27,745 nucleotides of DNA, taken from a virus. The notes under the pieces were generated by a model that had not been told where the DNA came from, did no database searches, and was given only the letters and a program-made list of their open reading frames with translations. This document shows positions 22,398 to 27,745 of the stretch, piece by piece. The first letter of the stretch is position 1. Each line of letters opens with the position of its first letter. The stretch is taken from positions 1 through 27,745 of the IMG/VR virus record IMGVR_UViG_3300012931_000063; one strand, written 5' to 3'. The position numbers and the translations under genes are program-made.

Positions 22398-22417
22398 TAA
22401 CATCCAAGTAACAGAAA
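22398..22417 (+). repeat. 20-base direct repeat, copy 1
   Basis: taacatccaagtaacagaaa here recurs as taacatccaagtaccagaaa at 27624-27643 (19 of 20 identical). Each copy lies just after the end of a small gene. The two flank the accessory stretch of about 5.2 kb and might be recombination or att-like sites; the pairing is an observation only. Confidence 0.7.
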
Positions 22418-24539: not shown

Positions 24540-25151
24540 ATGATTTACTTTATCGGAAACAAAGAAATGAATATTTGTAAAATTGGATTTTCAAAAAGAC
24601 CATACAGGCGTATTGATAGTTTAAGGAAATTATATCCTTTCAATTTAGAAATATTTAGCATAATTGACGGAACTCCTCACGATGAAAAAATGTATCATTC
24701 AAAATATTTTGATTACAGGATTAAAGGCGAGTGGTTTAAATTAAATAATGTGCAAGAACTTGGTTTTAGTAAGTCAATAAAAGAGTTAAAAATGGGGCAT
24801 TTAATTCTAAATATAAATGAAAAAAATGGCTATATTCATTTACAGAGTTTATTAGCTCAATTAAATCAAGATAGGATTTTAGAACAATTAAATAATATAA
24901 ATTTCAATTCATGGGTGCAACATAATACTCAGTTTTTAGAAACGCTAAATAATCCTATAATTAAAGAGACTTGCTTATGGATTAATATTTACGTTGCATT
25001 TGAATTAATAAGGTATTCAACAATTAAAAATAAAATAATACTTTATGAAAATATTTATAATTGCGATGTACTTCGTGATAATAATCAAGCTATCAGAATT
25101 GGGATTGAAAAGGCTATAAATATGCACGAGGCTTCTTTAAGTGGTGCATAA
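24540..25151 (+). CDS. GIY-YIG (T5orf172/MUG113) and KilA-N domain protein
   Basis: A 203-residue protein. The N-terminal third is GIY-YIG-like of the T5orf172/MUG113 type: MIYFIG at the start, NICKIGFSKRPYRR, the core Arg, LEIFSIIDGTP, the E...H...F pattern and GEWF at about 62-65. The C-terminal part (GYIHLQSLLAQLNQD, NFNSWVQHNTQFLETL, CLWINIYVAFELIRY) fits a KilA-N domain, where 'W-hydrophobic-x-x-x-x-A' marks the DNA-binding helix pair. Such fusions occur in phage antirepressor-type regulators. The stop codon TAA (25149-25151) is also the first bases of palindrome R1. Confidence 0.75.
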   Translation: MIYFIGNKEMNICKIGFSKRPYRRIDSLRKLYPFNLEIFSIIDGTPHDEKMYHSKYFDYRIKGEWFKLNNVQELGFSKSIKELKMGHLILNINEKNGYIHLQSLLAQLNQDRILEQLNNINFNSWVQHNTQFLETLNNPIIKETCLWINIYVAFELIRYSTIKNKIILYENIYNCDVLRDNNQAIRIGIEKAINMHEASLSGA

Positions 25152-25276
25152 CGGCTGCGGGTATGAAATCGGTTGGGATTGCGAAGTACTATACTATCAA
25201 GTTGTAAAACACTTGCTACGGGCTACGAATTTTAATAAACCACTAAAACCCAACTGTTTTATACCACGTGTTGTAC
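25149..25276 (+). repeat. Palindromic element R1 (128 nt, attC-like)
   Basis: It begins TAAC inside the stop codon of the GIY-YIG gene and ends GTTGTAC. The arms pair imperfectly: TGCGGGTATGAAATCGGTTGGG on the left is matched by the complement of CCCAACTGTTTTATACCACG on the right. R3 shares both arms and the centre (GGTATGAAATCG, GGATTGCGA, CACTAAAAC, TTTTATACC) and the same length of 128. Such short, folded sites between single genes resemble integron attC sites (AAC...GTT ends), though the inner bases do not fit RYYYAAC/GTTRRRY exactly. Confidence 0.7.
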
Positions 25277-25327
25277 GCAGTTGTTTATAACTTATATTTG
25301 TAAATTAAATAATAAAGATTATCTTTG
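25271..25327 (+). promoter_or_regulatory. Tandem overlapping promoters (start within R1 end)
   Basis: TTG at 25271-25273 (inside the R1 end), 19 bases, TATATTTG (25293-25300), 19 bases, TATCTTTG (25320-25327). The TTTG of the first -7 box is at the right distance to be the -33 of the second. Both would drive the AntA-like gene at 25351, from start points near 25307 and 25334. Confidence 0.7.
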
Positions 25328-25350
25328 TAGTATAATTAAATCTATAAAGT

Positions 25351-25683
25351 ATGTTACAAATAAATGAAAGAAACAGAGTATATGGCGAAGATATTCACTT
25401 GGCTATTGAAAGTAAAAACAAAAATTACAGAGATTGGCTTAATGATAAAATTCAATATGCTGATTTAAAAGAAGAAAAAGACTTTTTCGCTATCCTGCTA
25501 AAAAGTTCTGGAGGCAGACCAAAGACACAATATGAATTTACTTTGGATGCCGCAAAGGAAATTTGCTTACTTGAAAAAAATGAAAAAGCTAAACAAATAC
25601 GCAGATGGCTTATTGATTTATCGAATAAAGCAGAAAACCTTGAATTAATTACCGTTAAACAGGCTGCATTGCCGTTAAAGTAA
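25351..25683 (+). CDS. AntA/AntB-like antirepressor, N-terminal part (110 aa)
   Basis: A 110-residue ORF with the AntA/AntB pattern: ERNRVYGEDIHLAIESKNKNYRDWLNDKI, then DLKEEKDFFAILLKSSGGRPKTQYEFTLDAAKEICLLEKNEKAKQIRRWLI. The 'd.W......f.e..Df.......ggr...dY.lt.daAke......k....r...i' layout is typical. Antirepressors block phage repressors and so switch to lytic growth. The frame ends at TAA 25683, but the neighbouring frame stays open from 25659 and continues for about 160 codons, so the gene may be broken or frameshifted. Confidence 0.75.
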   Translation: MLQINERNRVYGEDIHLAIESKNKNYRDWLNDKIQYADLKEEKDFFAILLKSSGGRPKTQYEFTLDAAKEICLLEKNEKAKQIRRWLIDLSNKAENLELITVKQAALPLK

Positions 25684-26141
25684 TTAACTGCTTAAAGTAT
25701 GTTGAAAATCAAAAAGAGGCATACAAAGTACATCAAACAAAAATTCTTGCAGAAAATATAGATATATGTAACCCGAAATATATTTATTCTGAATTTGCTA
25801 AATATAGGGCAAATATTGTAGGATGGGATAAAAATAAAGTTGACGAAGCAATAGGCAAGTATTTGAATGAACATTCTGGTTATAATAGGTCAAAAATTGA
25901 CAAAACAGATATGCAAACAAAACTTTCTGTTATGGATATTTGTGAAGCTGTTAGGGTTGCTTGTTTAGATATTCTTTATTCAAAAGACACCGATGAACAA
26001 CTTGCAAGCCGATTTTCAATGCTTTGTAAAAATTTAGCAAAAGAAATGCAGATAGTTCCTGAAAAGCGAAATGAAAGCAATCTATTCAGAGAAAAAGAGG
26101 CATTAGATTCTGTTAAAGAACTAAGAATTGAAAATTTATGA
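25659..26141 (+). CDS. C-terminal part of the split antirepressor (open frame, internal ATG at 25863)
   Basis: The open frame from 25659 covers about 160 residues but has no ATG until 25863 (MNEHSGYNRS...). If translated alone from 25863 it gives 92 residues. The segment EFAKYRANIVGWDKNKVDEAIGKYLNEH and DICEAVRVACLDILYSKDTDEQLASRFS resembles the C-terminal part of phage antirepressors of Bacteroidota. The part before 25863 is clearly coding-like, which argues for one longer protein rather than a short separate gene. Confidence 0.5.
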   Translation, partial: TGCIAVKVINCLKYVENQKEAYKVHQTKILAENIDICNPKYIYSEFAKYRANIVGWDKNKVDEAIGKYLNEHSGYNRSKIDKTDMQTKLSVMDICEAVRVACLDILYSKDTDEQLASRFSMLCKNLAKEMQIVPEKRNESNLFREKEALDSVKELRIENL

Positions 26142-26165
26142 TTGGCGTAGTTTTACAATTGCGTA

Positions 26166-26292
26166 TAACGTTAAGTATATGGCAAGTTGTGGATTAAAAT
26201 GTGCTACCCTATCGAACCTCACAAAAGTAAATTAATGGCACAAATATACAAGTTGGAACGACACCCCCAAATTGCTATATACATTGTTAGTG
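26166..26292 (+). repeat. Palindromic element R2 (127 nt, attC-like)
   Basis: It begins TAACG after the end of the split antirepressor and ends GTTAGTG. Left arm TAACGTTAAGTATATGGCAA pairs with the right arm TTGCTATATACATTGTTA, with one wobble and small bulges. Length and layout match R1 and R3, but the internal sequence is different, as is usual for attC sites of unrelated cassettes. Confidence 0.65.
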
Positions 26293-26313
26293 TGCGTTTT
26301 TATTCAAATCGAA

Positions 26314-26601
26314 ATGAGAGCCTATAAACAAGAATTGGAGATTATCGCAAATGACATATTAAATCAAAATGCAGATGCAAAGGGGGATGAAAATAAACCA
26401 AACTATACCAATCGAGAGTTTATGAATGCTGTTATCATTTTCCAAACGGCATTGATGGATAAAATGTATGACAATCAAAATTATGATAAAATGAATGTCG
26501 ATGACAGGTTAAAGATGACTGAAAAATGCGGATTAGATTTGCGAAAATTAATACATACATATACAAACCTCGATACTCATAAGATTGAGCAGTTTCTTTA
26601 A
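26314..26601 (+). CDS. Hypothetical helical protein (95 aa)
   Basis: Start chosen at MRAYKQELEII (ATG 26314), 22 bases past the end of R2; the in-frame ATG at 26272 lies inside R2. The product is helix-rich (KQELEIIANDILNQN, REFMNAVIIFQTALMDKMYDNQ, RLKMTEKCGLDLRKLI). No family is recognised. The stop TAA at 26601 lies eight bases before R3. Confidence 0.6.
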   Translation: MRAYKQELEIIANDILNQNADAKGDENKPNYTNREFMNAVIIFQTALMDKMYDNQNYDKMNVDDRLKMTEKCGLDLRKLIHTYTNLDTHKIEQFL

Positions 26602-26609
26602 ATGCACCC

Positions 26610-26737
26610 TAACGTTTGTCGGTATGAAATCGAAGCGGATTGCGAGCGATGAACTGTCAATATACACCGAAGTTTGGACGGGAAACAAAGCCCAAAATTA
26701 GCACTAAAACTGCTTTGTTTTATACCGTGTGTTATGG
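26610..26737 (+). repeat. Palindromic element R3 (128 nt, attC-like)
   Basis: It runs from CCCTAACG to GTTATGG. Left arm TCGGTATGAAATCGAAGCGG pairs with the complement of the right arm CTGCTTTGTTTTATACCG. It is a clear homologue of R1 (shared GGTATGAAATCG, GGATTGCGA, CACTAAAAC and TTTTATACC, same length). Confidence 0.75.
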
Positions 26738-26778
26738 TTTCGTGCTTTATTAAATGTCTAATTTTAAACTAATTATAA

Positions 26779-27111
26779 ATGAAAAAAGCAAAAGAACACG
26801 CAAACGAACTGGTAGTTTCCTATTCAGATGCAGTTATGAATAACAATTGGGATATTTTTAAAACCAAAATATCTGATGTGTTTTATGAGGTTGCAGTAAA
26901 CGAGGTTAAAGAACTCCAAAAAGCAAGAAACATAAAATTAGATACTGGTTTAATTCCAATATTTAAAGACCAGCGAGCAAAATATGGTTCAATTTGTAGA
27001 ATAGTAAACACGGTAAAAGCTGATTTACTTTCGATAACAGACTTTGACGAAGTTATAAAAGAAATTCATCCTAATATTTACGATTGGTACGTGTCTCAGG
27101 TTTTAGCATGA
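26779..27111 (+). CDS. Hypothetical helical protein (110 aa)
   Basis: A 110-residue protein starting 42 bases after R3. It is helix-rich (KEHANELVVSYSDAVMNNNWDIFK, VNEVKELQKARNIKLD) and has a conserved-looking RAKYGSICRIVNTVKADLL segment. No family is recognised. The stop TGA at 27111 lies five bases before R4. Confidence 0.65.
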   Translation: MKKAKEHANELVVSYSDAVMNNNWDIFKTKISDVFYEVAVNEVKELQKARNIKLDTGLIPIFKDQRAKYGSICRIVNTVKADLLSITDFDEVIKEIHPNIYDWYVSQVLA

Positions 27112-27115
27112 ACCA

Positions 27116-27208
27116 TAACGATGGTTGTGTGCGTGCGGTTTTGCCTGCACGCAACTATCAATTTATACGAAATTACACGGCAAAACTGACGCACACAACG
27201 TGTTATGG
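27116..27208 (+). repeat. Palindromic element R4 (93 nt, attC-like)
   Basis: CCATAACG at the start and GTTATGG at the end are exact complements. Inner arms GGTTGTGTGCGTGCGGTTTTGCC and GGCAAAACTGACGCACACAACG pair well with small bulges. The hairpin is shorter than R1-R3 but has the same end pattern, and lies between single genes in the same orientation. Confidence 0.75.
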
Positions 27209-27263
27209 GCTGCCGTTTTTAAGATATAGCCTTGGACGGGCTTTGTAAAATCCACTTAATATT

Positions 27264-27572
27264 ATGGTAGCAAATAATTTGATTGTTAATTACAAATTGA
27301 GTGCTGAAAATGCCGCTCAGATTAACAGACGTAGAACTAATTCTGTCTCAATTGCAGAAAGAATTAAAGAGAAAATTTGGCCAACTGGTGCACAGGCTCA
27401 CATAGGTAATGAAGCCAAAGAAGGGCAAATATTACCGATGGTAATTGTTGGGATTTGGAGTGATACGTGCGTAAATGGTCAGGTTTTTTTAGATGGCTGC
27501 GACCAATTTTGGGTTACATCCGCTCTACAAGGGAATGAACCGGGTAACTGGAACTATTTCATGTGCGACTAA
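27264..27572 (+). CDS. Hypothetical protein (102 aa)
   Basis: A 102-residue protein 55 bases after R4. It has an N-terminal Asn/Ala/Arg-rich part (INRRRTNSVSIAERIKEKIW) and a C-terminal strand-rich part with Trp and Cys (LPMVIVGIWSDTCVNGQVFL, DQFWVTSALQGNEPGNWNYF). No family is recognised. Confidence 0.6.
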   Translation: MVANNLIVNYKLSAENAAQINRRRTNSVSIAERIKEKIWPTGAQAHIGNEAKEGQILPMVIVGIWSDTCVNGQVFLDGCDQFWVTSALQGNEPGNWNYFMCD

Positions 27573-27581
27573 AGTTTTTGG

Positions 27582-27623
27582 GTTCGTAAGACTGTTTCTT
27601 CGGAGCGGTCTTACGGTTGCCCA
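27582..27623 (+). other. Stem-loop after the last gene
   Basis: CGTAAGACTG (27585-27594) and CGGTCTTACG (27606-27615) form a 10-bp stem with one wobble and an 11-base loop holding TTCG. Flanking GGG and CCC can extend it with bulges. It lies ten bases after the stop at 27572. Without a following T-run, a terminator is only one possibility; a folded recombination or protein-binding site is another. Confidence 0.6.
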
Positions 27624-27643
27624 TAACATCCAAGTACCAGAAA
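27624..27643 (+). repeat. 20-base direct repeat, copy 2
   Basis: taacatccaagtaccagaaa matches copy 1 at 22398-22417 at 19 of 20 bases. It directly follows the stem-loop at 27582-27623 and begins CATAACATCC, which also has the TAAC start of the palindromic elements. The window ends about 100 bases later with no further gene seen. Confidence 0.6.
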
Positions 27644-27745
27644 CATGCGTGACACACAGCACTTTATGCGGTAACGTCATTACGTGTCCACTGGTTAATC
27701 AACATAGATAATTGAGGCACAGCATGTTTGCAAACACACTTTCGG

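Follow-up and report, generated by a model that had tools for sequence, protein, structure and literature searches.

We analysed IMG/VR virus record IMGVR_UViG_3300012931_000063 over its full length of 27,745 bases (the window), in which four short genes near the right end of the contig each follow an attC-like palindrome. We consider it likely that this region is a phage-borne array of four integron-like cassettes, probably moved in trans by a host recombinase of the XerA/IntI group. The arrays and their units, the exchange of units between related phages, the inverted polarity of the phage cassettes and a chromosomal platform of recombinase and attI-like site were established by sequence comparison.

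An earlier note, made from the letters of the window, had described four folded elements between single genes, and all four were found where it placed them, on the plus strand: R1 (25149-25276), R2 (26166-26292), R3 (26610-26737) and R4 (27116-27208). They begin with TAAC at 25149, 26166, 26610 and 27116, and carry GTTR at 25270, 26286, 26731 and 27202. A covariance model (model R2, a name distinct from that of palindrome R2) was trained at full length on 36 cassette sites from Bacteroidota chromosomes only, with no window sequence in the training set. Applied to both strands of the window, it returned as its top four matches R1 (25139-25283, 79.8 bits, E = 3.6e-16), R3 (26600-26744, 70.7 bits, E = 3.7e-14), R2 (26156-26299, 69.5 bits, E = 6.8e-14) and R4 (27106-27215, 27.1 bits, E = 1.5e-4), all on the plus strand and followed by a fifth match at E = 0.53; these E-values are approximate, and the ranking of matches is clear. 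A first model with trimmed loops (model R1) matched only palindrome R4 among the four, a result probably due to its penalty on long loops, and was superseded by the full-length chromosomal model. A scan of the window against Rfam gave zero matches.

The four palindromes belong to a larger family. Forty-seven elements, mostly viral, align without gaps over 88 columns, in which AACG and TGTT are invariant and the asymmetric loop is fixed. Covariation in the inner stem reaches 0.390, compared with 0.172 ± 0.012 in shuffled versions (0 of 500 reach the observed value) and 0.157-0.272 in slid versions. As in attC sites, structure is conserved over sequence, and an unpaired internal loop and an extra-helical base are present. 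The attC boxes R'' = RYYYAAC and R' = GTTRRRY were not found: R1-R4 read GTTGTAC, GTTAGTG, GTTATGG and GTTATGG, deviating from GTTRRRY as the earlier note had cautioned, and the family consensus of this outer box is GTTR-N6-G. R1 and R3 are the closest pair, as proposed, whereas the suggestion that R2 and R4 share architecture only did not hold, both being members of the same covarying family.

Each cassette gene is bounded by its own matched end arms, GTTR-N6-G and T-N6'-TAAC, which are complementary across the gene. Because the outer arms are unmatched within one palindrome, the full hairpin would form only in an excised circle. Across 75 neighbouring arm pairs, a noisy set, mean pairing was 3.41 of 6 positions across genes, 1.79 within elements and 1.70 in random pairs, and none of 10,000 permutations was as high (highest, 2.32). 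In 29 clear arm pairs, position 11 is always unpaired (mostly G against T), and pairing picks up again beyond it. In integron terms, each cassette has an R'' that is complementary to the R' with which that cassette begins. Folding agrees with this geometry for the circle form. Linear single-strand folds gave z-scores of -0.87, 0.09 and 0.01 for R1-R3, and R4 alone stood out from shuffles (z = -4.0). When each palindrome was folded together with its own unit's closing arm, the arrangement of the excised circle, the z-scores for R1-R4 were -2.6, -2.5, -2.9 and -6.0, compared with -1.5, 0.0, -0.3 and -3.8 for the array form in the same comparison, with an energy gain of 4.5 to 7.7 kcal/mol in all four units. 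The folding check proposed with the original claim thus succeeded for every circle-form site and failed for R1-R3 in array form.

Unit 1 (25153..26169, plus strand, as are the other units and genes of the array) comprises R1, an antirepressor gene and a closing T-N6-TAAC, its boundaries being set by analogy with junctions in sibling phages. Its arms, GTTG-TACGCA-G (25270) and T-TGCGTA-TAAC (ending at 26169), pair at 6 of 6 N6 positions across the gene and at 3 of 6 within R1. The gene (25351..26141) encodes an AntA domain (PF08346, E = 2.6e-14; phrog_5817 anti-repressor, E = 6e-20), in keeping with the claim that antirepressors are among the units. It is broken by a frameshift near 25655-25683, after which reading resumes in another frame to 26141; the frameshift may be real decay, a programmed shift or an assembly error. 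Unit 2 (26170..26613) holds R2, a gene with no assigned function (26314..26601) and a closing arm, with GTTA-GTGTGC-G (26286) and T-GCACCC-TAAC (ending at 26613) pairing at 5 of 6 positions across the gene and 0 of 6 within R2. Unit 3 (26614..27119) holds R3, a gene at 26779-27111 and a closing arm; GTTA-TGGTTT-C (26731) and GAACCA-TAAC (ending at 27119) pair at 5 of 6 positions, and the arm extends past one bulge. Unit 4 (27120..27627) holds R4, a gene at 27264-27572 (phrog_19300, PHROG E = 1.3e-21) and a closing arm, with GTTA-TGGGCT-G (27202) and T-TGCCCA-TAAC (ending at 27627) again pairing at 5 of 6.

A fifth TAAC, at 27624, pairs with the outer arm of R4 and closes the array, so all four cassettes lie inside the window. 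The array end (27624..27745) consists of this TAAC followed by TAACATCCAAGTACCAGAAA, and similar sequences occur at loci L005 and L008 and at window position 22398. No clear sign of a further palindrome was seen in the 118 bases that remain up to the contig end, although one that finishes just beyond this end is conceivable. A fifth, truncated palindrome at 27624 was considered and dropped; an array end is likelier, since other loci show matched array ends without palindromes. Some 5 kb leftward, among small phage genes, positions 22398-22417 read TAACATCCAAGTAACAGAAAG, a near-copy of the array end that may mark where a second array, or one since lost, terminates. Several units also have a terminator-like hairpin, GGTTCGTA(A/G)GA...TC(T/C)TACG, ahead of the closing arm; it occurs at window 27581-27620 and also precedes the unit-2 homologue in L005 and L007.

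Homologues of the unit-2 gene are also found in the Flavobacterium phages lillamy, morran and sniff (Lillamyvirus), whose complete genomes each hold 14-15 elements in a single early region, on the gene strand and with near-perfect arm matching. Although the array blocks that align are 99-100% identical, entire units are present in one phage and absent from another. Phage morran has gained a two-gene unit immediately after ACATAACG, sniff has gained two units immediately after TTAACG, and one lillamy unit is absent from sniff and morran at TAACGTT. All resolved sibling junctions share the crossover window TAACG, which reads CG/TTA on the other strand, the G/TT of integrons (the slash marks the crossover), and single units are exchanged at this point. 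The phage units also include methyltransferases. The proposal that these are exchangeable gene units is thus borne out by unit gain and loss between near-identical siblings. Every sibling junction keeps the palindrome with its downstream gene. Likewise, locus L002 shares palindrome R2 and the downstream gene with the window at 86% identity over 26159-26613, ending at the TAAC of R3, with different flanks, and L043 holds the same pair in a third setting. The search for units in other genomes therefore recovered unit 2 in other surroundings, as anticipated, and reassigned the palindrome, which belongs with the gene downstream rather than with the preceding gene, at whose stop codon it lies; our own first, integron-style assumption that it was a property of the upstream gene was reversed by the sibling indels and L002.

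The same family of sites is common in chromosomes of relatives of the phage's likely hosts. In a sample of 296 genomes from Bacteroidota, the phylum of the genome that holds L043 (G001), 146 carry such sites at a model R2 threshold of E ≤ 1e-6, and in 20-kb pieces around the chromosomal matches the arm rule is true for most neighbouring pairs. Palindromes at one locus, L092 (G387:C1:61500-81400), are mostly near-identical, like those of a sedentary chromosomal integron, and show weak arm matching. Clustering of open reading frames (ORFs) near chromosomal arrays and near true IntI genes identified tyrosine recombinases as the family present in the largest number of regions. These array-linked recombinases match PF13495 and PF00589 and score best with XerA-type and integron models, under the cut-offs (199 bits or less against TIGR02249, whose cut-off is 265). 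Many are extended at the N terminus by a part that holds a W-x(n)-W motif, in some members twice. The spacing from box I to HxxR is 91-92 amino acids in 17 members (two of them possibly ordinary Xer enzymes, and L141 counted by its second motif) versus 131-133 in four IntI of Bacteroidota; from this short spacing, the IntI-specific domain is missing from the array-linked enzymes. An integron integrase with that domain is also absent from the window.

In chromosomes, a matched arm closes the cassette nearest the recombinase and is followed by a conserved attI-like sequence, TAACTcgTTTATA, with no palindrome. This site lies mostly 92-106 bp from the recombinase stop codon and has the consensus TAACT(cg)TTTATA; the window has an array end only. 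Array and recombinase are at most 14 kb apart in 15 genomes. Across the sample, sites were found in 76 of 86 recombinase-positive genomes at E ≤ 1e-75 (odds ratio 15, p = 4e-19), and at E ≤ 1e-90 in 49 of 50, as against 97 of the 246 remaining genomes (odds ratio 75, p = 2e-16), values that are biased somewhat upward because model R2 was trained partly on loci picked near the recombinase. With the earlier model R1, whose training set held no recombinase-chosen loci, the odds ratio was 9.1 (p = 1.5e-8) at E ≤ 1e-100. Two variants of the arrangement were also noted. Contig G390:C8 (L147, L077) carries two recombinase copies about 30 kb apart, each ending its own array, and G390 and G204 also hold a true IntI; at L085:5992-7332, a diverged copy near an array has changed catalytic motifs and an extra C-terminal part.

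We propose a mechanism by analogy with integrons. The mobile unit is an attC-like hairpin with a single downstream gene, bounded at TAAC/G. In an excised unit circle, the complementary outer arms would meet to form the full hairpin. The likeliest enzyme is a host tyrosine recombinase of the XerA/IntI group without the IntI-specific domain, of the type that adjoins same-family chromosomal arrays. It would fold one strand of the site, cut at the TAAC/G foot, and excise or insert units, and phages without a recombinase gene would use the host enzyme in trans. Action on folded strands is supported by the covarying stem and by arms that vary between units yet match within a unit; action in trans on the phage units is suggested by the fact that the phage encodes no recombinase. 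Published recombination at a related site, by IntI1 in Polaribacter phage P12002L (PMC9892861), lends further support. The window array may itself be active.

Several observations weigh against this interpretation. R1-R3 in array form fold no more stably than shuffled sequence, and unit exchange was observed in related phages, the window array itself excepted. At E ≤ 1e-90, 97 of the 146 array genomes have no recombinase; the cut-off may also admit a few Xer housekeeping enzymes, and some array genomes (4 of 22) hold a true IntI as well. The recombinase is absent from the window, and the annotations of the three complete sibling genomes (lillamy, morran and sniff) include no integrase. The earlier remark that no integron integrase is visible in the window was correct, as tests of the window genes against integron integrase and the other integrase families tried found none. 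A recombinase search of viral contigs gave two weak matches only.

We also weighed other explanations of the array. Integron-like cassettes moved by a true, host-supplied IntI are a possible but unlikely one. A cluster of attC sites lacking an integrase is termed a CALIN. Such arrays are known from phages: a survey that reports 17 CALINs includes the Bacteroidota phage Polaribacter phage P12002L (Qi et al. 2023, PMC9892861). In that survey one site of P12002L was recombined by IntI1, and by model R2 the phage carries sites of the window family, the site tested there not being equated with a particular family site here. Together with the 4 of 22 array genomes that hold a true IntI, this favours IntI. 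Yet the IntI loci examined, in four array genomes and one other, show at most one candidate site nearby, on which ground we dropped classical IntI as the arrays' own enzyme. Most array genomes have no IntI above the cut-off, and the recombinase that does adjoin the arrays differs from it. A classical array, that of Shewanella phage M16-3, was moreover matched by neither covariance model.

A phage lying within or beside a chromosomal cassette array, so that the array is host DNA, would account for its position at the contig end and for the abundance of such sites in Bacteroidota chromosomes. This is improbable. All 56 viral matches at E < 0.01 (L043 and P12002L excluded) lie on the gene strand. 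Where the arm rule confirmed a cassette and the polarity could be decided, 22 of 23 viral cassettes have their gene on the TAACG strand, whereas 48 of 52 chromosomal cassettes have it on the other strand, which is the classical polarity. The Shewanella array agrees with the chromosomal ones, since along the gene strand its sites read TAACA...CGTTA. Compared with chromosomal and classical arrays, phage cassettes are thus inverted: the gene upstream of its own attC, as in integrons, is found in chromosomes (48:4) and not in phages (22:1 inverted). An interim assumption that genes are inverted in all Bacteroidota arrays was ruled out by the same counts. The window array has the phage-type polarity, which argues against host DNA. 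In addition, relatives of the unit-2 gene number 41 in viral contigs versus 1 in 84,980 species genomes in the same scan, and isolated complete phages hold such arrays internally.

Swapping of units by phage homologous recombination at the shared TAACG, with no site-specific enzyme, is very improbable. Phages do recombine at short homologies, and the siblings differ elsewhere in their early regions too, but every junction that could be resolved sits at one and the same 5-base site, and across unrelated sequences the arms stay matched within units. Ordinary scattered intergenic palindromes, of REP-like or terminator type and with no role in gene exchange, are hardly credible: the folding energies of R1-R3 resemble shuffles and a distinct terminator-like hairpin precedes the closing arm in some cassettes, but the arms pair across the gene and not within the element, siblings show clean unit gains at TAACG, and in viral loci the sites favour one strand by 40 to 1. 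Scattering without unit exchange is contradicted by the complementarity across genes and by the sibling junctions; it is the outcome that the earlier note had named as fatal to its claim. An HUH transposase of the IS200/IS605 or RAYT type that would cut the hairpin at its TAAC foot, a reading which the hairpin beside a fixed tetranucleotide and the unit boundary on that tetranucleotide would suit, is scarcely tenable either, since ORF clustering saw no such family recurring beside arrays, where a tyrosine recombinase does recur, and such elements are not known to have arms that complement each other at the two ends of a unit.

Outside the array, the left part of the window is a tailed-phage structural region with a terminase large subunit (Pfam PF04466), and the right end is a row of short rightward genes. 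The left neighbour of the array is a GIY-YIG-like gene (T5orf172/MUG113; 24540..25151, plus strand; PF13455, E = 4e-9; PF10544, E = 7e-5). It is incomplete as a cassette, the matched arm being absent upstream: the best upstream partner of the R1 outer arm scores 7, versus about 11-13 for true partners. Within a structural-region gene, a 75-bp repeat occurs three times in tandem at 426-685.

Returning to the cassette interpretation, we lean towards the broader view that Bacteroidota hold a widespread, largely unrecognised integron-like system, built on a Xer-type recombinase without the I2/IntI domain, and that their phages carry inverted cassettes and shuffle accessory genes through the host enzyme in trans. 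Since roughly half of the Bacteroidota genomes sampled have family sites, an overlooked route of phage-host gene exchange is indicated. The ability of integron integrases to work on folded single strands has been attributed to an innovation, the I2 helix (PMC7790495). In many Bacteroidota, a Xer-like enzyme that lacks I2 lies beside folded attC-like sites, which would make the origin of integrons directly testable. An integron integrase is defined by its additional IntI-specific domain (PMC9668308). We do not class the chromosomal system as an integron because this defining feature was looked for and is absent; it probably works like an integron, though outside the IntI-domain definition. Integrons have been reported in Bacteroidota (PMC8618304). 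Our search of an open-access library (subscription papers and preprints lay outside it) found no paper on a Bacteroidota system with a recombinase lacking the IntI domain or on inverted phage cassettes. The main text of the phage CALIN survey (PMC9892861) does not name the arrays of 14-15 sites in Lillamyvirus, nor does it describe cassettes that are consistently inverted or a recombinase dedicated to them.

Like XerA, XerC, XerD and IntI (PDB 4a8e, 5hxy, 1a0p, 2a3v), the array-linked recombinases combine SAM-like and catalytic domains, and their best sequence matches are XerA (8e-36) and IntI4 (2.5e-34, in two pieces). They differ in being extended at the N terminus, where some have two W-x(n)-W repeats, and in having no IntI insertion. 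Compared with integron cassette arrays and CALINs, the outer box is GTTR-N6-G instead of GTTRRRY, with about 10 paired positions and a constant mismatch; the internal loop is asymmetric (5 and 1 nt) in the window family; the phage genes are inverted relative to the site; and the recombinase neighbouring the chromosomal arrays is without the IntI-specific domain. Shared with those systems are tandem single-gene units, folded covarying sites, outer arms that are paired only in the circle, a G/TT crossover and, in chromosomes, an attI-like site at one end of the array.

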